This document shows, piece after piece, positions 24,035 through 53,404 of a DNA stretch of 64,000 nt. The DNA comes from Streptomyces sp. NBC_00683 (GTDB lineage Bacteria; Actinomycetota; Actinomycetes; Streptomycetales; Streptomycetaceae). The stretch spans positions 7,564,001 to 7,628,000 of the forward strand of contig NZ_CP109013.1 of NCBI RefSeq assembly GCF_036226745.1. Reading direction: 5' to 3'. The notes beneath the pieces are model-generated. The model did not search any database. It was not told the DNA's origin and saw only the letters and a list, made by a program, of their open reading frames with translations. Position 1 is the first letter of the stretch; each line of letters starts with the position of its first letter. A program made the translations under genes and the position numbers.

Positions 24035-25714
24035 TCATGAAGTGGCCGCGTGCCCTCCCACGCCGGTTTCCGCAGCGCGGTACGCGCGCCAGCCACCGTG
24101 GGCCGTGATGTCCGCGGCCCCGTGCAGCGCATACGGCTCACAGAGGAATCCAGGGGCCGTGGTGCCGTCGGCGAGGTCGATGCGGCCCAGCGTCATCGGG
24201 TGCGGGAGCTGCGCCGTCAGAGTGCCCAGCCCCTCCGGCGGCAGTTCCCAGATCTCCGTCTCGACGGCTGCACCGTCCTCGGCGACCCGTTCAAGGCCCG
24301 GCTTGGCGGGAGTCGTACGCAGCGCGCGCAGTCTGTAGGTGGGTGCTGTCCTCGTCGTACGGACGAGCCGGGCGCCGAGCGCGAGGAGCTGTGAGTTGAG
24401 CGGCTGGCCCGTCAGGTGGGCGCCGACCACGGCGAGCTGTACGGGCGGGGTCAGGAGTGCCGCGATCCTGGGCAGCCGTTCGTCGGTGTCCGCCGGGCCG
24501 ATCAGCATGACGCCGAAGGGCAGTCCCGCGATGTCGCCCGCGGGCACGGCGATCGCGCACATGTCGAACAGGTTCGTGGAGTTGGTGAACCGCCCCAGCC
24601 GGGTGTTCGCGCCGACGGGGTCGGCGGCCACATCGGCGAGGGTGGGGTGCCCGGGCGTGGTGGGGAGCAGGAGGGCGTCGGCGTCGCCGAGTGCGCGCAG
24701 TGCCGCCGTACGGAGACGTGCCAGGCGGTCCCGGTCGGTGAAGAGACGGTGCGCGGGGATGTCGCGGGCCGCGGAAATGATCGCGGCCACCGTGGGGTCG
24801 AGATCCGGAGGCGCGGGAGTGCTGTCGATGAAGTCACCCACGGCGGTGTAGCGCTCGGCCACGAACGCCCCCTGGTACAGCAGGGCCGCCGCCTCGGTGA
24901 ACGGGGTGAGGTCCAGCGGCCTGATCTCGGCACCCGCCGCGCGGAGCCGCTCGACGGCAGCCTCGTACGCCGCAGCCCAGCCGGGGTCGAGCGTTCCGAG
25001 CTGCTGGACAGGAGGGACGGCGACGCGCCAGGGGCCCGCTGTCCGGGGAGGGACGGCGCGCGGTGCGGGAGTGCTCATCAGGCCCAGAGCCTGCTCCGCC
25101 TCGGGGAGCGTACGGGCGAACACCGTGACGCAGTCCAGGCTCGCGCAGGCCGGCACCACCCCCTCGGTCGGGACGAGACCTCGGGTCGGCTTCACACCGA
25201 CGATGCCGTTGAACGCCGCGGGAACGCGCCCCGAGCCCGCGGTGTCCGTGCCGAGGGCCAGGTCGGCGATGCCCAGGGCGACCGCGACCGCCGACCCGGA
25301 ACTGGAACCGCCGCTGACGCGCGAGGGGTCGACGGCGTTGCGCACCGCACCGTACGGGGAGCGGGTCCCGACCAGACCGGTGGCGAACTGGTCGAGGTTC
25401 GTCGTGCCGATCACCAGCGCACCGGCCGCGCGCAGACGGGCCACGGCGGGAGCGTCGGCGGCGGGCTTGTACGCGTACGAGGGACAGCCGGCCGTGGTCG
25501 GCAGCCCGGCCACGTCGATATTGCCCTTGACCGCCAGGAGGCGGCCCGACAGCGGAAGCTGTTCGCCCGCCGCGACGCGGGCGTCCAGAGCGCGGGCCTC
25601 CTCCTCCAGATCGGCGAGCGGACGCAGGTCGATCCAGATCTCGGGCCGGTCGACCGCGAGGACACGCCCGTGGGCTGCACGGACCCGCTGGAGAACGGGG
25701 CTGGGGTCGGTCAT
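24035..25714 (-). CDS. atzF: Allophanate hydrolase
   Basis: A 559-residue amidase-signature enzyme that splits allophanate into ammonia and CO2. The Ser-cisSer-Lys triad is visible: Lys in LLAVKGNID near residue 63, and the Ser pair in SGGSSSGSAVAVA near 136-143. The C-terminal 130 residues are the extra domain of true allophanate hydrolases (YALHGAADITAHGGWRAY near the end), which separates it from glutamyl-tRNA amidotransferase. Its ATG overlaps the carboxylase stop by 4 bp (ATGA), so it is the last gene of a translationally coupled four-gene operon. It completes nitrogen release from the carboxylated substrate whether that is urea or guanidine. Confidence 0.95.
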   Translation of the reverse strand: MTDPSPVLQRVRAAHGRVLAVDRPEIWIDLRPLADLEEEARALDARVAAGEQLPLSGRLLAVKGNIDVAGLPTTAGCPSYAYKPAADAPAVARLRAAGALVIGTTNLDQFATGLVGTRSPYGAVRNAVDPSRVSGGSSSGSAVAVALGIADLALGTDTAGSGRVPAAFNGIVGVKPTRGLVPTEGVVPACASLDCVTVFARTLPEAEQALGLMSTPAPRAVPPRTAGPWRVAVPPVQQLGTLDPGWAAAYEAAVERLRAAGAEIRPLDLTPFTEAAALLYQGAFVAERYTAVGDFIDSTPAPPDLDPTVAAIISAARDIPAHRLFTDRDRLARLRTAALRALGDADALLLPTTPGHPTLADVAADPVGANTRLGRFTNSTNLFDMCAIAVPAGDIAGLPFGVMLIGPADTDERLPRIAALLTPPVQLAVVGAHLTGQPLNSQLLALGARLVRTTRTAPTYRLRALRTTPAKPGLERVAEDGAAVETEIWELPPEGLGTLTAQLPHPMTLGRIDLADGTTAPGFLCEPYALHGAADITAHGGWRAYRAAETGVGGHAATS

Positions 25715-28700
25715 GGTGCCACCTCGGGTCGGCGGGACAGGACGAGCAGTGGTGTTCCCGATTCCACCTGGGCGCCGGGCTTGGTGAGGATCCGGACGAC
25801 CGTGCCGTCCATCGGGGCATGAACGCGGGATTCCATCTTCATCGCCTCCAGGGCGAGCAGCGGCTGACCCGCCGTGACCGTGTCCCCCGCGGCCACATTC
25901 AACTGCCAGACGGATGCGGCGAACTCGGCTTCCAGCAGCCGGCCGCCCTCCGGTATCTCGATCTCCACCGGCACCTCGGCCGGGGCGGTTGCCGCCTCGG
26001 CCCTGGCGAACTCGCCGGCCTCCTCCCAGGCGTCACGCTCGGCGCCGAACGCGGCGCCCTGCCGGGCGCGGAACGCGGCGATCGACACGGCGTTCCCGTC
26101 GAGGAACGCCTGGTACCGCGCCAGCGAGAACTCGCCTTCCTCGATACGCGGTACGAAGCGCCCGGACGCGATGTCCGCACGGAGCTCGAGGAGTTCGTCC
26201 GCCTCCACCGGATACCACTTGATGCGGTCGAAGAAGCGCAGCAGCCAGGGCGAACCCGGCTCGAAGGCACCGCGCTGCTGCCAGCCCGACCACACCTGGG
26301 TCGTGCGGCCCACGAACTGGTAGCCGCCGGGGCCCTCCATCCCGTAGATGCACAGGTACGCGCCGCCGATGCCGACCGAGTTCTCGGCCGTCCAGGTGCG
26401 GGCCGGGTTGTACTTCGTGGTGACCAGCCGGTGGCGCGGGTCCAGCGGAGTGGCGACGGGCGCGCCCAGGTAGACATCGCCGAGCCCCATCACCAGGTAC
26501 TCGGCGTCGAAGACCGTGCGGTAGACCTCGTCCACGGAGTCCAGGCCGTTGACCCGGCGGATGAACTCGATGTTCCACGGGCACCAGGGGGCGTCGTCCC
26601 GGACCCCCGCCATGTAGCGCGCGATGGCCTCGCGGGTCGCCGGGTCGTCCCAGGACAACGGCAGATGCACGGTCCTGGACCGTACGACGAGGGCATCGGT
26701 CGGCGGGAGCGCGGCCTCGGTGCGGTGGAGCAGCTCCAGGAGGCGTTCCTGCGGAAGGACCGAGGGGTCGGTCTGGATCTGGAGCGAGCGGATGCCGGGC
26801 GTGAGGCCGGTGACGCCGGGGACGGCCTGCGCCGTCAGCGCCTCCATCAGCGCGTGGACGCGCATCCGCATCGCCAGGTCCAGCTGCATCGGCCCGTACT
26901 CGACCAGGACGTTGTCGTCACCGCTGCGGCGGTAGGTGAGGGTGCCGTCCTGGAACAGGATGCCGCCGTCGACGATCGCGGGGCGCGGCGCACCGGTGAT
27001 CGTCACCGGCTGGAAGCGGACCGTGTCGCCGGGGCGGAGCTGCCCCAGCTTCCAGCGTTCGCCCGTCACCACCGTCGCCGGGCAGACGAACCCGCCCAGC
27101 GAGGGCCCGTCGGGACCGAGGAGCACCGGCATGTCGCCTGTGTAGTCGACGGCGCCCACGGAGTAGGGCGTGTCATGGATGTTGGACGGGTGCAGGCCTG
27201 CCTCGCCGCCGTCGGTGCGCGCCCAGCGCGGCTTGGGGCCGACCAGACGCACACCGGTCCGGGCCGAGTTGAAGTGGACCTTCCAGTCGGCCGCGTAGAA
27301 GTCGTGGATGTCCTCCTCGGTGAAGAACTCGGGCGCAGCGTGGGGGCCTTCGGCCGCCCCGATCCGCCACACGGAACCGAAGTCCGGACGTGCACTCTCG
27401 GGGACGGCGGCGCCCGCGGCCGCGCCGGCCTCGTCGGTTGCGAAGGTCTCGTCGGTCCCGCAGTGCAGCACGTCGCCGGTGCGCAGCGCCCGCCCGCCGT
27501 GGCCGCCGAAGCCGCCGAGCGTGAACGTGGCGGCGCTGCCCAGGAAGCCGGGGACGTCCAGGCCGCCTCCCGCGAACAGGACGTAGGTCCGCAGTCCGTG
27601 CACTGCCGGGGTGCCGACAGCGAGCGTGGCGCCGGCCGGGACGGTCAGGGGCTCCCACTGCCCGACCGGCTCGCCGTCGAGCGTCACGGGGGCAGGTGCG
27701 CCCGTGACACAGACCGTCGTCGCACGGGTGAAGCGCAGAGTCGGGCCCTGGAGCGTGCATTCGAGGCCGGGCGCGCCCGGGGCGTTGTCCAGGGCGGTGT
27801 TGCCGAGCCGGAAGGAGAGGTCGTCCATGGGGCCCGAAGGCGGTACGCCCACCTGCCAGTAGCCCGTGCGACCGGGCCAGTCCTGCACGGTGGTGAGTGT
27901 GCCGCCCGAGACCACCTCGATACGGGGGGTCGGGTCCGTGACCGTGGCCAGGGTGGCGGTCGAGTGCGCGGCGCCCCTGACCCGGTCGTCGGCCAGGGCG
28001 GCCCGCACCAGGCCCAGATTGGTCTCGATGCCGTCCACCCGGGTCGCGGCGAGTGCCTCGTCCAGCCGGGTGAGAGCCTCGGCGCGGTCGGTGCCGTACG
28101 CGATGACCTTGGCCAGCATCGGGTCGTACGAGGTCGTCACCTCCGTACCCGTCTCGATCCAGGTATCCACACGGATGCCCTCGGCCTCGGGGAACGCGAC
28201 GCGGGTCAGCAGGCCGGCGCCGGGGCGGTGGTCGCGCGTCGGGTCCTCGGCGTACACGCGTGCCTCGACCGCGTGGCCGCGCGGCGCAGACGGCTCCTGC
28301 ACGACGTCGGTGTCGCCCTGCGCCAGGCGCAGCATCCAGGCGACGAGGTCGACACCGAAGATCTCCTCGGTGACCGGGTGCTCGACCTGGAGACGGGTGT
28401 TGACCTCCAGGAAGTACGCCTCCTCGCGGGCGGCGTCATACACGAACTCCACCGTGCCCGCCGAACGGTAGCCGACCGAGGCACACAACTCACGCGCCGA
28501 TGTGGCCAGTCGGCTGCGGACGTCGTCCGGGAGGCCCGGGGCGGGGGCCTCCTCCAGGACCTTCTGGTTGCGGCGCTGGAGCGAGCAGTCGCGGTCGCCG
28601 AAGGTGACCACGCGGCCCCGGCCGTCGCCGAAGACCTGCACCTCCACATGCCGCGCGTGCTCGACGAGCCGCTCCAGGAAGACCCCCGCCGAGGAGAAGG

Positions 28701-29271
28701 ACGCGGCGGCGACGCGCTGCACACGCTCCCAGGCGTCGGTCAGTTCCTCGGCGGAACGGCAGGCCGACATGCCGATTCCGCCGCCTCCTCCGGTGGCCTT
28801 GAGCATCACCGGGTAGCCGATGCGGTCCGCCGCGGTGAGGGCCGCGGGAAGGTCGGGCAGCAGCCCGGTGCCGGGCGCCAGGGGGACACCCGCCTCCTCG
28901 GCCGCCGCGCGTGCGGTGTGCTTGGCGCCGAAGAGTTCCAGCTGATCGGCGGTCGGACCGACGAAGACGATGCCGGCGTCCTCGCAACGCCGGGCGAACT
29001 CCGCGTCCTCGGAGAGGAATCCGTATCCCGGGTGGATGGCCCCGGCGCCGGTGTCCTTGGCGGCCTTGAGTACCAGGTCGGCGTCGAGGTACGACTCCTT
29101 GGCCGGCGCCGGGCCGAGGCGCACCGCCTCGTCGGCGAGCCGGACATGAGGGGCGGAGCGATCGGCGTCGGAGAACACCGCGACGGTACGCAGGCCCAGT
29201 TCGCGGGCCGTCCGGATGATCCGGACGGCTATCTCGCCGCGGTTGGCGATCAGGAGGGTGTCGAAGGTCAT
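25711..29271 (-). CDS. Biotin-dependent urea/guanidine carboxylase
   Basis: A 1,186-residue single-chain carboxylase. Residues 1-450 are biotin carboxylase with ATP-grasp (LLIANRGEIAVRI, KATGGGGGIGM). About 465-760 are the first carboxyltransferase half (PSGPMDDLSFRLGN) and about 780-1010 the second (GMEGPGGYQFVGRT). The last 80 residues are the biotinyl domain, with the biotinylated Lys in LEAMKMES. Annotated relatives are called urea carboxylase, but enzymes encoded beside DUF1989 pairs have been shown to prefer guanidine. Here both DUF1989 genes are directly upstream and a urease operon is elsewhere in the window, so guanidine is the better guess. The start is ATG 29271, overlapping the upstream stop by 4 bp. 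Confidence 0.95.
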   Translation of the reverse strand: MTFDTLLIANRGEIAVRIIRTARELGLRTVAVFSDADRSAPHVRLADEAVRLGPAPAKESYLDADLVLKAAKDTGAGAIHPGYGFLSEDAEFARRCEDAGIVFVGPTADQLELFGAKHTARAAAEEAGVPLAPGTGLLPDLPAALTAADRIGYPVMLKATGGGGGIGMSACRSAEELTDAWERVQRVAAASFSSAGVFLERLVEHARHVEVQVFGDGRGRVVTFGDRDCSLQRRNQKVLEEAPAPGLPDDVRSRLATSARELCASVGYRSAGTVEFVYDAAREEAYFLEVNTRLQVEHPVTEEIFGVDLVAWMLRLAQGDTDVVQEPSAPRGHAVEARVYAEDPTRDHRPGAGLLTRVAFPEAEGIRVDTWIETGTEVTTSYDPMLAKVIAYGTDRAEALTRLDEALAATRVDGIETNLGLVRAALADDRVRGAAHSTATLATVTDPTPRIEVVSGGTLTTVQDWPGRTGYWQVGVPPSGPMDDLSFRLGNTALDNAPGAPGLECTLQGPTLRFTRATTVCVTGAPAPVTLDGEPVGQWEPLTVPAGATLAVGTPAVHGLRTYVLFAGGGLDVPGFLGSAATFTLGGFGGHGGRALRTGDVLHCGTDETFATDEAGAAAGAAVPESARPDFGSVWRIGAAEGPHAAPEFFTEEDIHDFYAADWKVHFNSARTGVRLVGPKPRWARTDGGEAGLHPSNIHDTPYSVGAVDYTGDMPVLLGPDGPSLGGFVCPATVVTGERWKLGQLRPGDTVRFQPVTITGAPRPAIVDGGILFQDGTLTYRRSGDDNVLVEYGPMQLDLAMRMRVHALMEALTAQAVPGVTGLTPGIRSLQIQTDPSVLPQERLLELLHRTEAALPPTDALVVRSRTVHLPLSWDDPATREAIARYMAGVRDDAPWCPWNIEFIRRVNGLDSVDEVYRTVFDAEYLVMGLGDVYLGAPVATPLDPRHRLVTTKYNPARTWTAENSVGIGGAYLCIYGMEGPGGYQFVGRTTQVWSGWQQRGAFEPGSPWLLRFFDRIKWYPVEADELLELRADIASGRFVPRIEEGEFSLARYQAFLDGNAVSIAAFRARQGAAFGAERDAWEEAGEFARAEAATAPAEVPVEIEIPEGGRLLEAEFAASVWQLNVAAGDTVTAGQPLLALEAMKMESRVHAPMDGTVVRILTKPGAQVESGTPLLVLSRRPEVAP

Positions 29272-29906
29272 CGCGCGGCCCCCGTTGCCGCGGGGGCGGT
29301 GATGGTGGCCTCGACGGCTGTCGGGTCGAAGCCGTTGCACGGGTTGTTGATCTGGGGGCAGTTGGACACCAGGACCAGGACGTCCGTCTCGGCGCGGAGG
29401 GTGACCTTCAGGCCGGGCGCCGAGATGCCGTCCACGATGCCGAGGGTGCCGTCCTTCTCGACCGGCACGTTCATGTACCAGTTGATGTTGGAGACGAGAT
29501 CCCGTTTGCCGAGCCCGTGCCGGGCGCCCTCCGCGAGGAAGTTGTCCACGCAGGCGTGCTGCGACCAGGTGTGGTGTCCGTAGCGCAGGGTGTTGGATTC
29601 CTTGGAGCACGCGCCGCCCACGGTGTCGTGCCGGCCGCAGGTGTCCTCGGTGACCGTCATGAGCGGGGTGTGCTCGTTCGACATCAGCACGCTGCCGGTG
29701 GTGAGGAAGATGCTGCCCTGTGCGTGGAGGGTGTCCGGCGCGCTGTAGCGGACGGCGGTGTCCCGGGCGTCGTACACGAGGAAGTCGACGGCCTGATTGC
29801 CGTGCAGGTCGGTGAGGGTGAGGTGCTCGCCGGCGCGGACCACGGCGGACCACGCGGCCCGTGCGGGGATCGTGGCGGTGGTGGTCGTGGCGGTCGTCCG
29901 GGTCAT
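29268..29906 (-). CDS. DUF1989 protein, probable carboxyguanidine deiminase subunit (UAAP2 type)
   Basis: A 212-residue protein of the urea-carboxylase-associated family. Pairs of these proteins are known to form carboxyguanidine deiminase (CgdAB), which converts carboxyguanidine to allophanate and ammonia. The start is the ATG at 29906 (MTRTTATTTT). Conserved Cys and His residues that could hold the metal or catalyse are visible in EDTCGRHDTVGGACSKES near residues 87-104 and NCPQINNPCNGF near 182-193. It overlaps the upstream paralogue and the downstream carboxylase by 4 bp at each end, which argues for equal, coupled production of the subunits. Confidence 0.9.
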   Translation of the reverse strand: MTRTTATTTTATIPARAAWSAVVRAGEHLTLTDLHGNQAVDFLVYDARDTAVRYSAPDTLHAQGSIFLTTGSVLMSNEHTPLMTVTEDTCGRHDTVGGACSKESNTLRYGHHTWSQHACVDNFLAEGARHGLGKRDLVSNINWYMNVPVEKDGTLGIVDGISAPGLKVTLRAETDVLVLVSNCPQINNPCNGFDPTAVEATITAPAATGAAR

Positions 29907-30721
29907 GCTCGCCCCCTGGCGGTGAGGAAGTCGTACGTGTTGAGGAAGGCCCTGCGCCCCTCGGGTGCGGCGTCCCAGAGCGGGTCGCCGGGCCGCGTCG
30001 GCCGGGCACGCCAGGCGAGCACCTCCAGCGAGGTGCAGGTGTACTCCGGGCGGGGATCCAGCGGATGCGGGACGTTCGCGACGAGCACCGTCAGGTCCTG
30101 CTCGGCGCGCAGGGTCACGGCCGTGCCCGCTCCCGCCGAGCCGGTGAAGTCCAGGGCGCCGTCCTCGTGTATCTCCACGCCCTGGAAGAAGGAGAGGGAG
30201 GGCGGCAGATCCCGGGGCTCGAGGCCGTTCTTGGCGGCCGCGAGCTTCAGCAGTTCCCGCCCGGCGGGGGACCCGGACTGCGGAGTGCCGTCCCCGTACC
30301 GCGCGGTGTTGCGCAGGAGGGTCGACGTACCGCACAGCGCGTCGTGCCGGCCCGAGGAGTCGGCGATCACCGAAGCGAGGACGCGCCCCTGGTCGGAGAG
30401 GAGCAGCCGGTCCGCGCCGAGATAGGCATTCCACTGCACCTTGATCGTGTCGGCGGTGTTCAGCCGCTCCCACGGGCGGCCGTCCGCGTACAGGAGCACA
30501 TGGGCGCAGGCGTCGCCGTCGAGGTCCGTGAGGCGCAGTTCCGTACCGCGGGCGAGTACGCGGTGTGTGTAGTTGCCTCCCGCGACGGTCTCGGCCCACA
30601 CGGGCTCGCCCGGCAGGCAGGCGGGCCAGTCGGCCGCGGGCACCACCGGCATGTCACGGGTACGGGTGACGTGTTGGGAGCGGGCGTGCTCCCGCGCTCC
30701 GTGTGTTGTCGCTGTCGCCAT
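29903..30721 (-). CDS. DUF1989 protein, probable carboxyguanidine deiminase subunit (UAAP1 type)
   Basis: A 272-residue member of the same family, first gene of the operon. It has the parallel features to its partner: VLLYADGRPWERLNTADT, then DSSGRHDALCGTS with Cys and His near residue 120, and a C-terminal region of about 60 residues that the shorter partner lacks (YTCTSLEVLAWRA). The start was set at ATG 30721, preceded by a GGAGG ribosome site; the longer frame would run over the operator palindrome at 30782-30801. Expression should depend on the TetR protein encoded divergently 181 bp away. Together with its partner it is inferred to deiminate carboxyguanidine. Confidence 0.88.
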   Translation of the reverse strand: MATATTHGAREHARSQHVTRTRDMPVVPAADWPACLPGEPVWAETVAGGNYTHRVLARGTELRLTDLDGDACAHVLLYADGRPWERLNTADTIKVQWNAYLGADRLLLSDQGRVLASVIADSSGRHDALCGTSTLLRNTARYGDGTPQSGSPAGRELLKLAAAKNGLEPRDLPPSLSFFQGVEIHEDGALDFTGSAGAGTAVTLRAEQDLTVLVANVPHPLDPRPEYTCTSLEVLAWRARPTRPGDPLWDAAPEGRRAFLNTYDFLTARGRA

Positions 30722-30781
30722 GGCTGGACCTCCGGTCGGCGGTGGCATCACTGCGCGGCTCGCTTCGGGGCCCCGCGCCAG

Positions 30782-30801
30782 TTTCTGTCGCTCGACAGAA
30801 A
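30782..30801. promoter_or_regulatory. TetR-type operator upstream of the carboxylase operon
   Basis: A perfect 8-bp inverted repeat, TTTCTGTC and GACAGAAA with a 4-nt centre, between the divergent operon and TetR genes, 61-80 bp before the operon start. A near copy lies before the permease gene at 33202-33221, at almost the same distance from that start. This is the pattern expected for the site of the local TetR repressor. Confidence 0.75.
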
Positions 30802-30902
30802 TTAAGTCGCCCGGGATTCGGGTTCGTTGCCCGTCCATTGCGGGTGCGTTACCGACTGCTCACCAAGATCCGTACGGTCCGCGATGTGCGACGATCGGCC
30901 CC

Positions 30903-31538
30903 ATGCCTCCCACCGGAAGAAAGGTCGGTCGCCCGCGCGCCCAGCAGCGGCCCGACAGCGGTCTGTCCGCACGAGACGAACTGCTGGGCGCGGCCGCGGA
31001 GCTGTTCACCAGTCGCGGCTACTCGGCGACCACCACCCGGGCCGTCGCCGAACGGGCGGGCATGCGCCAGGCGACGATGTACCACTACGTCGCGGGTAAG
31101 GAGGATCTGCTCGCGGAGCTCCTCGAATCCACGGTCACCCCGTCCCTGGCGGTGGCCAGGCAGCTGCTCGCCGATGACGCGACCAGTGCGGAGGACCGGC
31201 TGTGGGAGCTGTGCCGCTCGGACGTGGCACTGCTGTGCGCGGGCCCGCACAATCTGGGCGCGCTGTACGTGCTGCCCGAGGTACAGGCGGAACGGTTCGC
31301 GGGCTTCCATCGCGTCCGGACCGAGCTCAAGGACGCGTACGGGCAGCTGCTGGCCGGCACGGAGGCGTGCGCGGATCTCGACAAGGGCGAGCTGGCGCTG
31401 CGTACCGATCTGGTCTTCGGCCTGATCGAAGGCGTGATCCTGGTGCACCGCTCGGACCCGGACAGGTCGGCCGACGTGTTCGCCGCCGCGACGGCGGACG
31501 CGGCGCTGCGGATCGCCGGGGCGCGGCGCGGCGGGTAG
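30903..31538 (+). CDS. TetR-family regulator of the carboxylase operon
   Basis: A 211-residue TetR regulator. The N-terminal helix-turn-helix lies at about residues 28-72 (AAELFTSRGYSATTTRAVAERAG, then MYHYVAGKEDLL). A C-terminal all-helical ligand-binding domain follows. It is divergent from the DUF1989/carboxylase/allophanate hydrolase operon and convergent with the permease gene, so it is the clear local regulator. The palindromes at 30782 and 33202 are its likely binding sites. The ligand could be guanidine, urea or a pathway intermediate. An ATG far upstream would extend the frame through the operator and the opposite gene, so ATG 30903 is used. Confidence 0.92.
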   Translation: MPPTGRKVGRPRAQQRPDSGLSARDELLGAAAELFTSRGYSATTTRAVAERAGMRQATMYHYVAGKEDLLAELLESTVTPSLAVARQLLADDATSAEDRLWELCRSDVALLCAGPHNLGALYVLPEVQAERFAGFHRVRTELKDAYGQLLAGTEACADLDKGELALRTDLVFGLIEGVILVHRSDPDRSADVFAAATADAALRIAGARRGG

Positions 31539-31548
31539 GGCACACGGA

Positions 31549-31586
31549 GGCCCCGGACACCGGCGGTTCTGCCGGGATCCGGGGCC
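31549..31586. terminator. Bidirectional terminator between TetR and permease genes
   Basis: A hairpin with outer 9-bp stem GGCCCCGGA/TCCGGGGCC and an inner CGGC/GCCG pairing fills the 54 bp between the convergent stops. It can serve both strands. Confidence 0.75.
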
Positions 31587-31592
31587 ATCGGG

Positions 31593-33134
31593 TCAGCGCG
31601 CGGAAGCTGCTCGCTTGTACGTGCGGTACGTGCGGTACGCGGCGCCCAGGGCGACCGTGCCGCTCAGGAACAGGACCGTGAACCACTGGAAGTACCAGTG
31701 GCCACCCGCCGGGTCGTAGACCTCTGCCCTGGGCCAGGCGAGGTTGACCGTCATGAACAGGCCGTAGAGCAGGGCGAGAACATTGACCGGCAGGCCCCAT
31801 CGCCCCAGTGAGAACAGCGGCTTGCCCGCCTCGTCCAGGGCATCGGTGCGGGAGCTGTACGTGCCGCGCAGCCGGCGGACCAGGAGCGGGCCGGTCACCA
31901 TCGAGTACGCGAGGTACAGCATCACGATGCACGTGGTGCCGATGGCCAGGAACGCGTCCGGCGAGGAGAAGTTGAGGAGCAGCAGGGCCGCGGCGAGTAC
32001 CCCGACGACCAGCGCGGGTGCGGTCGGCATCCCGGTGCGCCGGTTGACCTTGGACAGCAGGCCGGAGCAGGGCAACTGGCCGTCACGGGCCATCGAGAAC
32101 AGCATCCGGCACGCCGCCGTCTGGACCGCCAGCGTCGCCACCACGATGGCGACCACCACATCGGCCAGCAGAACCCGGCCCAGGCCGTCACCCAGACTGC
32201 TGGTCAGGACGTAACTCATGCCGTCGGCCGCGAGGTTCCCGTCCGTGAGGCTCGGTGCGGCCAGCAGCCCGCCCAGTACCAGCAGGCCGCCGAGCAGGCC
32301 CGCCGCCCCGAGCGCGGACAGGATCGTGCGCGGAGCGGTCCGGAGGGGATCGCGGGTCTCCTCGCTCATCTCCCCGGCGCTGTCGAAGCCGATCATCACG
32401 TACGCGGCCGTGAACGAACCCACCAGCAGGGCGCCGAACAGGCCCGTCTCCGCGCCACTCGTGTGAAAGGTGATGCCCGGACTGCGTTCGGAGTGCGTCA
32501 GCAGCAGTACCACGATGAGGACGGCGCCGATGATCTCGGCGGTGACCCCGATCCGGTTGATCACCGACATGACGCGGTTGTCGATGACGTTCACCCAGGT
32601 CGTCAGTACCAGCAGGAGCGTACCGAGGACTGCCGCGTTGGCCGCCCCGGTCGGCGACAGCGGTGACGGGTCGCCGCCGAGTATCTGGAAACCGGACCAG
32701 ATGGGCGGCATCACCATCTGGAGAGCCAGGGCCGCGGCTGCCACCACCACGACCTGGCCGATGACCATGATCCAGCCCGCGAACCAGCCGAAGGTGAGAT
32801 TGCTGAGCCGGGACGACCACTGGTAGATCGCACCCGAGATCGGGTAGCGGGCGGCGAGTTCGGCGAAGCACGCGGCGACCAGCAGCTGTCCGGCCAGCAC
32901 GGCCGGCCAGGTCCAGAAGAAGACCGGGCCGCCGAAGGCATAGCCGACGGCGAAGAACTGAAAGACCGTCGTCAGGACGGAGATGAACGAGAATCCGGCG
33001 GCGAAGGAGGCGTACCGGCCGAGGCTGCGGTGCAGTTCCTGTCGGTAGCCGAACTCCTCGAGGGAGGAGCCGGCTTCCGCGGCCGGGGGGACGGGCGGGT
33101 CGGGACGTAGGTCGGCGGGGGCGGTGGCGGCCAT
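31593..33134 (-). CDS. APC-family amino acid/amine permease
   Basis: A 513-residue membrane transporter with 12 hydrophobic helices and the APC (amino acid-polyamine-organocation) signature regions, such as FAELAARYPISGAIYQW near residue 90 and FDSAGEMSEETRDP near 245. Members of this branch occur beside urea carboxylase-type operons and are taken to import the nitrogen substrate. The same 20-bp palindrome that precedes the operon lies 68-87 bp before this start, and the last bases before both starts also match (AGGTCCAGCC then ATGG). That ties the gene to the TetR regulon. Substrate, inferred, is guanidine or urea, possibly another cationic amine. The start is ATG 33134. Confidence 0.9.
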   Translation of the reverse strand: MAATAPADLRPDPPVPPAAEAGSSLEEFGYRQELHRSLGRYASFAAGFSFISVLTTVFQFFAVGYAFGGPVFFWTWPAVLAGQLLVAACFAELAARYPISGAIYQWSSRLSNLTFGWFAGWIMVIGQVVVVAAAALALQMVMPPIWSGFQILGGDPSPLSPTGAANAAVLGTLLLVLTTWVNVIDNRVMSVINRIGVTAEIIGAVLIVVLLLTHSERSPGITFHTSGAETGLFGALLVGSFTAAYVMIGFDSAGEMSEETRDPLRTAPRTILSALGAAGLLGGLLVLGGLLAAPSLTDGNLAADGMSYVLTSSLGDGLGRVLLADVVVAIVVATLAVQTAACRMLFSMARDGQLPCSGLLSKVNRRTGMPTAPALVVGVLAAALLLLNFSSPDAFLAIGTTCIVMLYLAYSMVTGPLLVRRLRGTYSSRTDALDEAGKPLFSLGRWGLPVNVLALLYGLFMTVNLAWPRAEVYDPAGGHWYFQWFTVLFLSGTVALGAAYRTYRTYKRAASAR

Positions 33135-33201
33135 GGCTGGACCTGCTCTCAGGGGAGGGCGGACGGGTTCCGGGAGCGCGGGGCAGTCGGCCGAAGCCGT
33201 A

Positions 33202-33221
33202 TTCCTGTCGGACGATAGAAA
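33202..33221. promoter_or_regulatory. Second copy of the TetR-type operator, before the permease gene
   Basis: TTCCTGTC and GATAGAAA around a 4-nt centre, differing from the site at 30782-30801 at only two arm positions. The flanks also match: both sites are followed on the plus strand by ATTA. It is 68-87 bp upstream of the permease start. Confidence 0.72.
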
Positions 33222-33461
33222 TTAGGGAGAGGGTGTTTCCGCCGGATGACGCAGTCGTGTCCGCACGGAGCCGAAGCGCTCACGCCACGTGGGGCGCGCC
33301 CGTAGCCCGCAGGTGTGCGGCACTCGGGTGCGTGCGGCATCGCGGGGGGTGTGCGGCGGCGTTGTCCCAGCTCACCGGCGTCCCGCCGGGCGGTGCGGGG
33401 GCGCGCGTCCCGCGAGTGGTGGCACCGGTGCAGGGGGCACGCGCCGGTTCCTCTTGCCGGT

Positions 33462-33489: not shown

Positions 33490-33717
33490 GTGCCCAAGAC
33501 TCAGCTGAACGTTCGAGTGGACGAGGCCACCGCCGAAGCGGCGCGACAGCGCGCGCTGCAGCGGGGGATGAGCGTGAACCGCTACATAGAGGAGCTCGTC
33601 AAACAGGATGCGGGCGAGGTGGGACACACCTTCGTCGAGGCTGCGGCCGACTTCATGAAGCAGTACGAGTCGGTGTTCGCCGAGGAGTTCGGCACGGAGC
33701 GCAAAGGCAGCCGTTGA
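33490..33717 (+). CDS. Ribbon-helix-helix antitoxin
   Basis: A 75-residue protein starting with GTG 33490. The N-terminal 45 residues (PKTQLNVRVDEATAEAARQR, MSVNRYIEELVKQ) form a typical ribbon-helix-helix DNA-binding fold of the Arc/CopG type. The acidic C-terminal third (FVEAAADFMKQYESVFAEEF) is the kind of tail that wraps a toxin. The toxin gene overlaps its stop by 4 bp. The palindrome just upstream is the likely autoregulatory site. Confidence 0.85.
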   Translation: MPKTQLNVRVDEATAEAARQRALQRGMSVNRYIEELVKQDAGEVGHTFVEAAADFMKQYESVFAEEFGTERKGSR

Positions 33718-34085
33718 ACCTGCAGATCGACCTTTCCTGGCTGCTCATGGTCGCCGAGCACAAGACGCCCGGTGATCCGCAGGTCGTCGACTGGGGTGCG
33801 CTCGTCGCCGCGGTGGGCCGGCACGAGGCGGAGATCTTCGGCAGCCCCGTCTACAGCGATCCGCACTCCCGGGCTGCGGCTCTGCTGCAGCTGCTCCTTC
33901 ACGTACCGGCTCTGGAGCACTCCAACGCGATGTTCGCGTCCGCAGTCGCGTACGGCTATCTCGTCGCGTCGGGGCTGAAGGTCATCACGTCGCCCGAACA
34001 GGTGCGCGACCTGGCCCTGCTGGTGAAGGAGGGCAAGGCGGACGTCCGGGCCATCGCGGACGAACTGCGCCAGTGGACCCTGTGA
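33714..34085 (+). CDS. Fic/Doc-like toxin with degenerate active site
   Basis: A 123-residue all-helical protein starting with TTG 33714, overlapping the antitoxin stop (TTGA). Similar Streptomyces genes are annotated as the Fic-family toxin component of a toxin-antitoxin pair. The fold pattern resembles Doc: an N-terminal segment with HEAEIFGSP, then LLQLLLHVPALEHSNAMFASAVAYGYL. The Fic motif HPFxDGNKR, needed for AMP transfer or Doc kinase activity, is not intact: at the equivalent place only H-V-P-A-L-E-H-S-N remains, without the Gly and the Lys/Arg. Either it uses different residues or it is an inactive or retargeted toxin. Seven-bp repeats begin 17 bp after its stop. Confidence 0.78.
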   Translation: MNLQIDLSWLLMVAEHKTPGDPQVVDWGALVAAVGRHEAEIFGSPVYSDPHSRAAALLQLLLHVPALEHSNAMFASAVAYGYLVASGLKVITSPEQVRDLALLVKEGKADVRAIADELRQWTL

Positions 34086-43354: not shown

Positions 43355-43365
43355 GCGCAACCCTT

Positions 43366-43548
43366 CGTCAGCCGCCTGTGAAGGATGACCTGTCGGGTTC
43401 GGGCTGGCGAAGTTGCCCGGCCGCACTTGGCGGCTTCACCCCGAGGGTCGAAGGGATATCCCGTCGACCCGTTGTGCTCGGGTCCTCCACTCCTGCCGAT
43501 CCACTTCTGTCGACCAGGCATCCGGGCAGCGGCAGGACTCGGCGTCCG
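43366..43548 (-). promoter_or_regulatory. c-di-AMP (ydaO-type) riboswitch
   Basis: The leader of the NlpC/P60 gene, read on the minus strand, shows the conserved ydaO aptamer blocks. The 5' segment has GCCGAGTCCTGCC, a central GGGGTGAAGCC follows, and the 3' block has CCCGAACCCGACAGGTCATCC then CACAGGCGG, about 15-50 nt before the start codon. This class binds cyclic di-AMP and usually turns expression off at high ligand. In actinomycetes it controls resuscitation-promoting and wall-hydrolase genes. The edges are approximate. Confidence 0.85.
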
Positions 43549-51060: not shown

Positions 51061-51363
51061 GTGCAACTGACTCCGCACGAACAGGAACGCCTGCTCATTC
51101 ATGTGGCGGCCGATGTCGCCGAGAAGCGCAGGGCGCGCGGGCTGCGGCTGAATCACCCCGAGGCGATCGCCCTGATCACCTCCCACCTCCTGGAGGGCGC
51201 GCGCGACGGCCGGACCGTCGCCGAACTGATGGCCTCCGGCAGGAAGGTGCTCACCCGCGAGGACGTCATGGACGGCATCCCCGAGATGATCCACGACGTC
51301 CAGGTCGAAGCCACCTTCCCGGACGGCACCAAGCTCGTCACCGTCCACGATCCGATCGTCTGA
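51061..51363 (+). CDS. ureA: Urease gamma subunit
   Basis: A 100-residue structural subunit of nickel urease, which hydrolyses urea to ammonia and carbamate. Full-length match to the family: [21 protein letters not shown] at the start, [22 protein letters not shown] near residue 29, [24 protein letters not shown] at the end. The start is GTG 51061 with GGAAG upstream. First gene of ureABCFGD; a palindrome overlaps the promoter. Confidence 0.98.
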
Positions 51364-51378
51364 CGGGGGAGCGGCCGG

Positions 51379-51690
51379 ATGATTCCCGGAGAGATCCTGT
51401 ACGCGCAAGGCACGGTGCGGCTCAACGAGGGGCGCCCCGTCACCCGCATCACCGTCCTCAACGCAGCCGACCGGCCCGTCCAGGTCGGCTCGCACTACCA
51501 CTTCGCCGAGGCCAACCCCGGTCTGGACTTCGACCGCCGAGCAGCTCACGGGCTGCGGCTGAACATCGCAGCGGGTACCGCCGTGCGCTTCGAACCCGGT
51601 GTCCCGGTCGACGTCGAACTCGTCCCGCTCGCAGGCCTGCGCACCGTCCCCGGGCTGCGCGGCGAAACCGGAGGTTCCCTCGATGCCTGA
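51379..51690 (+). CDS. ureB: Urease beta subunit
   Basis: A 103-residue structural subunit that packs against UreC. Typical opening [40 protein letters not shown] near residue 31, and [17 protein letters not shown] near 52. Starts 15 bp after ureA and its end overlaps the ureC start by 8 bp. Confidence 0.98.
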
Positions 51691-53404
51691 GCTCAGCCGC
51701 GCCGTGTACGCCGACCTGTTCGGGCCGACCACCGGTGACCGCATCCGGCTCGCCGACACCGATCTCGTCGTCGAGATCGAGGAGGACCGCTCGGGCGGCC
51801 CCGGGAGGGCCGGTGACGAGGCGGTGTTCGGCGGTGGCAAGGTGATCCGCGAATCGATGGGCCAGGCGCGCACCACCCGCGCCGAGGGGGCACCCGACAC
51901 CGTCGTCACCGGCGCCGTCATCATCGACCACTGGGGCATCGTCAAGGCCGACATCGGTATCCGCGACGGCCGGATCACCGGCATCGGCAAGGCCGGCAAC
52001 CCCGACACGATGGACGGCGTCCACCCCGATCTGGTCATCGGCCCCGAGACCGAAATCATCGCGGGCAACGGCAAGTTCATCACCGCGGGTGCCATCGACG
52101 CGCACGTCCACTTCATCTCCCCGACCCTCGTCGACCAGGCGCTCTCCTCCGGTATCACCACGCTCGTCGGCGGCGGCACGGGACCGGCGGAAGGGACCAA
52201 GGCCACCACGATCACCCCGGGCCCCTGGCACCTCGCCCGGATGTTCGAGGCCCTCGAGGGCTATCCGGTCAACATCGGCCTGCTCGGCAAGGGCAACACG
52301 ATGTCCCGCGAGGCCATGCACTCCCAGCTGCGCGCCGGAGCACTGGGGTTCAAGATCCATGAGGACTGGGGCGCCACCCCCGCCGTCATCGACGCCTGTC
52401 TGAGCGTCTGCGAGGAGACCGGCGCTCAACTGGCCATCCACACGGACACGCTCAACGAGGCCGGATTCGTCGCCGACACCCTCGCCGCCATCGCCGGGCG
52501 CTCCATCCACGCGTACCACACCGAAGGTGCGGGCGGCGGGCACGCCCCCGACATCATCAGCGTGGTCTCGGAGCCGTACGTCCTGCCCAGCTCCACCAAT
52601 CCGACCCGGCCGCACACCGTCAACACGATCGAGGAACACCTCGACATGCTGATGGTCTGCCATCACCTCAACCCCGCCGTCCCGGAGGACCTGGCCTTCG
52701 CCGAGTCCCGGATCCGGCCCTCGACCATCGCGGCCGAGGACATCCTCCACGACCTCGGCGCCATCTCGATCATCTCCTCCGACTCCCAGGCGATGGGACG
52801 GATCGGCGAGGTGATCCTGCGTACCTGGCAGACCGCCCACGTGATGAAGCGGCGGCGCGGTTCCCTGGCGGGCGACGGGGCCGCCGACAACCACCGGGCT
52901 CGTCGCTATGTCGCCAAATACACCATCAACCCGGCGGTCGCCCAGGGCCTGGACCGGGAGATCGGCTCGGTCGAGACGGGGAAGCTCGCCGACCTCGTGC
53001 TGTGGGACCCGGCCTTCTTCGGCGTCAAGCCGCAGACGGTGATCAAGGGGGGGCAGATCGCGTACGCGCAGATGGGCGATGCCAACGCCTCGATCCCCAC
53101 CCCGCAGCCCGTGATGCCCCGCCCGATGTTCGGCGCCGTGGGGCGTGCGCCCGCCGCCAACTCCTTCAACTTCGTGTCCACGGCCGCCATCGAGGACGGG
53201 CTGCCGGACCGGCTGGGGCTGGGCAAGGCGTTCGTGCCCATCACCAGCACCCGTGGCGTCACCAAGGCGGACATGCGGGAGAACGACGCGATGCCGCGGG
53301 TCAAGGTCGACCCCGACAGCTTTGCCGTCACCATCGACGGGGAGCAGGTCGAACCTGCTCCGGCAGCCGAACTCCCCATGGCCCAGCGTTACTTCCTTTT
53401 CTGA
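51683..53404 (+). CDS. ureC: Urease alpha (catalytic) subunit
   Basis: A 573-residue nickel-binding subunit. The ligands are in place: His-x-His in DAHVHFIS near residue 138, the Lys that becomes carbamylated in GFKIHEDWG near 221, and His residues in [13 protein letters not shown] near 276. The Asp is in [12 protein letters not shown] near 365. The mobile flap with the active-site Cys and His is in MVCHHLNP near 322. It starts at ATG 51683 inside the end of ureB. Length matches the family, so the enzyme should be active once UreF, UreG and UreD load nickel. Confidence 0.98.

Follow-up and report, generated by a model that had tools for sequence, protein, structure and literature searches.

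The gene cluster considered here lies at positions 24035-33221 of a 64,000-nucleotide (nt) stretch of Streptomyces sp. NBC_00683 (hereafter, the window), and its closest described counterparts are actinobacterial operons controlled by the repressor AmtR and described as urea genes. Chen et al. 2013 reportedly described AmtR control of this operon type, as urea genes, in S. avermitilis (AmtRsav), judging from the title and the quoted consensus. Also in 2013, PMC4222082 (Table 3) tabulated ten actinobacteria with the same operon, a permease and amtR, S. avermitilis (sav6697-6701) among them. In the available part of that paper, AmtR of M. smegmatis is shown to bind at the msmeg_2184 promoter and to repress the orthologous genes, and neither urea nor amino acids affect this binding. 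Furthermore, GlnR is required there for induction of the AmtR targets, whose nitrogen control stays intact without AmtR and is lost without GlnR. The published AmtR operator consensus, TAtCTGTCa-n2-cGACAGATAT, is quoted in an excerpt of PMC8864220. On the enzyme side, the accessible sections of PMC11410670 and PMC12186494 give a rule by which guanidine carboxylases have Asp, and urea carboxylases Asn, at the position of K. lactis 1330, with Asp 1584 being required. Here, we report that the window locus is very probably a self-contained guanidine assimilation unit under AmtR and GlnR. The gene set and the AmtR switch were already known; the guanidine reading of the regulon and the testable ligand are the useful part.

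Signature residues and partner genes point to guanidine

The operon is encoded on the minus strand in the order UAAP1 (CgdA), UAAP2 (CgdB), carboxylase and allophanate hydrolase, with a 4-base overlap between each adjacent pair. The first DUF1989 gene (UAAP1, likely CgdA; 29903-30721, minus strand, start codon placed by eye) scored 309 bits against TIGR03425 (cut-off 205.95), and the second (UAAP2, likely CgdB; 29268-29906, minus strand) scored 329.5 bits against TIGR03424 (cut-off 284.7), both products carrying PF09347. By family, the pair likely forms the subunits of carboxyguanidine deiminase, CgdAB. The next gene, a predicted biotin-dependent guanidine carboxylase of 1186 amino acids that is annotated as urea carboxylase (25711-29271, minus strand; TIGR02712, 1818.9 bits, cut-off 1303.85), is full-length, with the Pfam domains for biotin carboxylase, carboxyltransferase A/B and C/D, and the biotinyl domain in order. 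The allophanate hydrolase of AtzF/AH type (24035-25714, minus strand) combines an amidase domain (PF01425) with an AH C-terminal domain (PF21986) and reached 684.6 bits against TIGR02713 (cut-off 511.05).

A preliminary description of this DNA had proposed comparing the carboxyltransferase residues with those of characterised enzymes. Alignment to K. lactis 5i8i, counted from its rows, gave the guanidine-type Asp at both positions, N1330 being replaced by D and D1584 being kept (D709 and D932 of the window carboxylase). Among 38 loci fetched from other UAAP1-bearing Streptomyces, the Asp/Asp state was found in all 37 readable carboxylases (a contig end cuts L089), and the UAAP1 and UAAP2 genes were both present in all 38. 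Asp/Asp was likewise found in 36 of 36 carboxylases of Actinomycetes genomes that have both UAAP1 and AmtR.

The annotation and the AmtR literature would instead make the locus a genuine urea route through urea carboxylase and allophanate hydrolase (urea amidolyase), running as a second urea pathway beside urease. The TIGR02712 and TIGR03428 models bear urea carboxylase names, and both PMC4222082, in its available part, and PMC5137332 label the operon as urea metabolism. Nevertheless, Asp stands at 1330 where a urea carboxylase should show Asn; the UAAP genes are unnecessary for urea, yet both occur in every fetched UAAP1-bearing Streptomyces locus; and M. smegmatis AmtR is not released by urea in the experiments given in the accessible text of PMC4222082. 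Moreover, the window itself encodes the urease structural genes ureA, ureB and ureC (51061-53404, plus strand), 18 kb past the second AmtR operator. Because the carboxylase is Asp/Asp and urease genes occur in the same window, we consider a second urea route very unlikely. The preliminary description had argued for guanidine over a second urea pathway, and this view is well supported at the sequence level by the signature residues, the UAAP pair and the separate urease genes; residue 1330 and the urease genes in particular speak against the urea pathway.

AmtR operators and GlnR-box-like sites at both promoters

Divergent from the operon is a TetR-family repressor gene (30903-31538, plus strand, start codon placed by eye), whose product has M. 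smegmatis AmtR 5e57 as its best PDB match (E 1.2e-35). The six top PDB matches were 5e57, 5dy1 (E 7.8e-29), 5dy0, 5dxz, 5mqq and 6gy3, ranging from E 1e-35 to 6e-26, and the next match was at 2e-12. Of these, 5e57, 5mqq and 6gy3 carry the label AmtR; the 5dx/5dy chains have the label TetR family only, and we take them to be C. glutamicum AmtR. The window protein matched no NCBIfam AmtR model, and its closest named relatives are nearly all from Streptomyces. Judged by these matches, the TetR protein is AmtR. The control of this locus had been put forward as a possible distinct regulatory solution in Streptomyces. That idea is unsupported given the PDB matches and the listing, binding and repression already reported in the available part of PMC4222082: the regulator is AmtR, and both the operon type and its control by AmtR were published in 2013 for M. 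smegmatis and, going by title and quoted consensus, for S. avermitilis.

The two palindromes ascribed to the TetR protein were recovered. Operator 1, TTTCTGTCGCTCGACAGAAA (30782-30801), is located between cgdA and amtR, and operator 2, TTCCTGTCGGACGATAGAAA (33202-33221), is located upstream of the permease gene. With at most 2 mismatches, the pattern TTYCTRTCRNNYGAYAGRAA, which was built from the two operator sites themselves, matched the window only at these two places and gave 0 matches in 100 shuffles; with at most 1 mismatch, no site other than the two operators matched in the 8.5-Mb genome, and a control pattern gave 0. All six genes and the two operators were found where the preliminary description had put them. 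The operators are of the published AmtR type at both target promoters, with agreement to the quoted consensus judged by eye. All 33 other fetched Streptomyces loci in which a close AmtR (at least 63% identity) lies beside the operon have an operator in the same place, in the gap that separates cgdA from amtR. Five further Streptomyces loci have a distant AmtR (approximately 40%), encoded at the end of an operon that starts with the permease gene; there, a related palindrome, TACCTGTC-N4-GACAGGTA, precedes the permease. An AmtR operator was present in 12 of the 13 permease promoters examined (window included), and the site in the remaining one, L098, is a variant.

The hexamer TAATTT (30799-30804, minus strand), which reaches into operator 1 and is conserved in aligned Streptomyces promoters, may be a -10 element. 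A GlnR-box-like site, GTAAC-n6-GCAAT (30837-30852, minus strand), starts 51 nt upstream of operator 1 and agrees at 9 of 10 positions with the box t/gTAAC-n6-Gc/aAAC given in Table 2 of PMC10704036, a paper available in part. When the final position of the pattern was relaxed to C or T, 31 of 34 operator-aligned Streptomyces promoters (window included) had such a box upstream of the operator, at exactly 51 nt, against a background of 0.0009 per 70 nt; the three unmatched promoters (L088, L093 and L105) are by eye one or two bases off. Upstream of the permease operator, a second GlnR-box-like site, GTCAT-n6-GAAAC (33235-33250, minus strand), was recognised by eye, and visual inspection of other permease promoters showed a similar GTCAC/GTGAC ... 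GAAAC. The preliminary description had overlooked the conserved GlnR-type box beside the operator, as well as the guanidine riboswitch that the genome carries elsewhere.

Co-occurrence of AmtR and the operon

UAAP1 scored above its cut-off in 39 of 150 Streptomyces genomes, each of which also encodes an AmtR homologue (E<=1e-20). In a survey of 394 Actinomycetes genomes, 41 had UAAP1 above cut-off, 42 had AmtR (E<1e-50) and 36 had both, so that AmtR was present in 36/41 UAAP1 genomes versus 6/353 others (Fisher p 2.6e-39, ignoring shared ancestry). Excluding the 12 genomes that supplied rows to the AmtR alignment, AmtR was found in 24/29 (p 9e-28, again ignoring shared ancestry). The cut-off for AmtR was set after seeing a gap from 3.8e-55 to 2.5e-32, and five genomes with AmtR between 1e-25 and this cut-off were left uncounted. 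Genomes with UAAP1 below its cut-off were also not counted (G068, G085 and G144 in Streptomyces; 30 genomes in the Actinomycetes survey). UAAP1 only was found in G164, G230, G255, G311 and G333, and AmtR only in G196, G284, G431, G473, G517 and G519. In 3 of the 36 genomes with both (G290, G323 and G524), AmtR is encoded elsewhere in the genome, as in M. smegmatis. A strict search for the core palindrome was positive for 29 of the 36 AmtR-bearing loci (24 of 31 in one set and 4 of 4 in another, plus the window) and for none of 6 AmtR-less loci. Two loci, L133 and L134 (genomes G255 and G333), contain cgdAB and allophanate hydrolase; the 19.5 kb retrieved gave no carboxylase match, and neither genome has an AmtR at E<=1e-25.

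Guanidine riboswitches and the permease

The preliminary description had suggested that a protein repressor takes the place of a riboswitch at this operon. In agreement with it, a scan of the window with all Rfam 15 families yielded no guanidine aptamer at gathering score. The genome-wide search, which covered RF00442 and RF01763 among the guanidine classes, gave no match for RF00442 and a single guanidine-III riboswitch (RF01763). The latter (L156:1501-1572; G000:C1:5374662) is 2.2 Mb from the operon and directly before an SMR (exporter-family) gene (L156:1585-1929), which matches PF00893 and has SugE, under its cut-off, as its best NCBIfam model. A guanidine riboswitch at the window operon was rejected on the grounds that none occurs in the window, RF00442 is missing from the genome and the sole RF01763 is so far away. 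More broadly, RF01763 matches were found in 175/394 Actinomycetes genomes, 168 of them above cut-off.

The 36 AmtR-bearing Actinomycetes loci all lack a guanidine riboswitch at gathering score. In G164 and G230, the operon is preceded by a guanidine-I riboswitch, and in G170, whose UAAP1 is below cut-off, a guanidine-I match of 63.0 bits equalled the gathering score in one scan and was unlisted in another. No AmtR at E<=1e-25 was detected in these three genomes. Met occupies the K. lactis 1330 position in the UAAP-operon carboxylases L140, L141, L142 and L128 (genomes G164, G230, G170 and G311, respectively). Since the guanidine-I loci without AmtR carry Met-1330 and the AmtR loci carry Asp/Asp, the type of switch pairs with the type of enzyme, a pairing that surely reflects common descent in part.

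The sixth gene encodes an APC-superfamily permease, a putative guanidine importer (31593-33134, minus strand; TIGR03428, 656 bits). Permeases 54% (G230) and 56% (G170) identical to it start approximately 70 and 130 nt, respectively, downstream of the guanidine-I match. Because its relatives adjoin guanidine-I riboswitch matches, guanidine is supported as its substrate despite a missed family cut-off.

Other features of the window

Within ureC, an Rfam match to RF02514 (5' ureB small RNA) lies antisense at 51847-52134 (minus strand). The window also contains a c-di-AMP (ydaO/yuaA) riboswitch at 43358-43530 (minus strand) and, by eye, a toxin-antitoxin-like pair of short adjacent genes at 33490-34085 (plus strand), the second of which (33714-34085) has no match in Pfam or NCBIfam.

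Discussion

We propose that the APC permease would import guanidine and that the ATP- and biotin-dependent carboxylase, assigned by its family and signature residues, would convert it to carboxyguanidine. CgdAB would then yield allophanate and ammonia, and allophanate hydrolase would release two further ammonia and CO2. These three reactions are known family chemistry, and the latter two enzymes are assigned by family. On its two operators, AmtR would silence both the cgdAB-carboxylase-hydrolase operon and the permease, as suggested by the sequence and the M. smegmatis work, while GlnR, bound just upstream at the conserved boxes, may activate both promoters under nitrogen limitation, in line with the same work. 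Release of AmtR would most likely occur through guanidine or a pathway intermediate, and urea would be handled apart, by the urease encoded in the window.

Several observations weigh against this proposal. The permease falls short of the cut-off of TIGR03428 (740.45 bits), the 'permease, urea carboxylase system' model, and therefore counts as a likely relative. Asp is not the sole guanidine-linked state at 1330, because Met-1330 carboxylases stand in operons behind guanidine-I riboswitches. The strict operator search missed 7 of the 36 AmtR-bearing loci (L122, L125, L136, L139, L145, L146 and L148). Among 49 AmtR-bearing Streptomyces genomes, 10 have neither UAAP1 above cut-off nor an operator in the fetched stretch around amtR, and AmtR-like proteins therefore have other roles. 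Furthermore, no AmtR effector was found in the literature examined, and in C. glutamicum the release of AmtR is attributed to adenylylated GlnK in the available part of PMC8864220.

The last points concern what AmtR senses. Outside Corynebacterium, AmtR may be a repressor responsive to guanidine or to carboxyguanidine/allophanate, the protein counterpart of guanidine riboswitches, a possibility that we advance tentatively. If AmtR does control a guanidine operon, guanidine is the obvious next candidate ligand. The only effector test found in the literature, with urea and amino acids on M. smegmatis AmtR, is negative in the accessible text, and a search by title and abstract that took in guanidine carboxylase of Mycobacterium and reached few subscription journals found no paper linking AmtR with guanidine. 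Three acidic residues, D107, E126 and E176, are kept in 67/67, 66/67 and 67/67 operon-linked AmtRs (window included), and the C. glutamicum AmtR chain has E, I and M at these positions. However, 12 AmtR copies that are not beside the operon (11 from UAAP1-less genomes and the second copy, L082, of G062) keep D107 in 11/12, E126 in 12/12 and E176 in 11/11 readable cases, as do the paralogues L157-L161. The residues thus mark the subfamily, not guanidine, and were rejected as proof of guanidine sensing.

Guanidine use could also be right while AmtR senses a general nitrogen signal (PII/GlnK as in C. glutamicum) or another small molecule, which is a real possibility if somewhat short of probable. 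It would fit C. glutamicum AmtR, which has no known small-molecule effector in the available part of PMC8864220. It would also fit the occurrence of AmtRs with the same acidic residues away from the operon, both in UAAP1-less Streptomyces and in the five paralogues, which have the same operator type and whose neighbours look like one ABC transporter of the oligopeptide/nickel type and a hydrolase of the isochorismatase fold (four neighbouring proteins were family-scanned, from L159 and L161). On the other hand, GlnR seems to be the route of the general nitrogen signal, because control in M. smegmatis survives the loss of AmtR and not that of GlnR (PMC4222082, available part), and the C. glutamicum mechanism need not extend to other AmtRs, because its chain has I and M where they have E126 and E176. 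Apart from this, genomes without UAAP1 above cut-off contain Streptomyces AmtR homologues (56-77% identical; L069-L079 and L163-L165), and the stretch fetched for them showed no operator. In 5 of 10 lone-AmtR loci viewed, a neighbour is helicase-like by eye, a partner that was uninformative and rejected as a clue to the effector.

If AmtR does respond to guanidine or to carboxyguanidine/allophanate, Actinomycetes such as this Streptomyces would read guanidine twice, through a guanidine-III riboswitch for export and through GlnR-gated AmtR for assimilation. What the literature calls the 'AmtR urea regulon' would then be a guanidine regulon, a protein sensor would be added to a field so far based on riboswitches, and an operon occurring in many actinomycete genera would receive a corrected annotation.

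Comparison with known systems

The S. avermitilis operon (sav6697-6701, with the permease sav6709) and those of nine other actinobacteria share with the window the gene set, the divergent amtR and a related operator, as far as the accessible parts of PMC4222082 describe them. In S. avermitilis, the permease gene sits elsewhere (PMC4222082 Figure 7 legend), whereas that of the window adjoins amtR, and the operon has been read as urea in print, whereas the window evidence points to guanidine. C. glutamicum AmtR is a TetR-family relative of the window AmtR with a related box, CTAT-N6-ATAG (given in the available part of PMC8864220). Its regulon comprises 30-35 genes with a proposed release by GlnK, in contrast to the two genomic sites of the window AmtR. 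The guanidine carboxylase pathway of Pseudomonas, Klebsiella, Raoultella and Vreelandella has the same four enzyme steps as the window, with Asp1330 as the published signature for guanidine carboxylases. There, the systems are described with riboswitch control and ABC importers (PMC12186494, PMC12508155 and PMC11410670, each in part), whereas the window has AmtR operators, GlnR-type boxes and an APC permease. Finally, the APC permease of Nitrospira inopinata, a proposed guanidine importer in the accessible sections of PMC11410670 and PMC12186494, is likewise an APC-superfamily protein encoded beside guanidine genes, a likeness drawn from descriptions rather than sequences; unlike the window permease, it sits with a guanidinase and a riboswitch.

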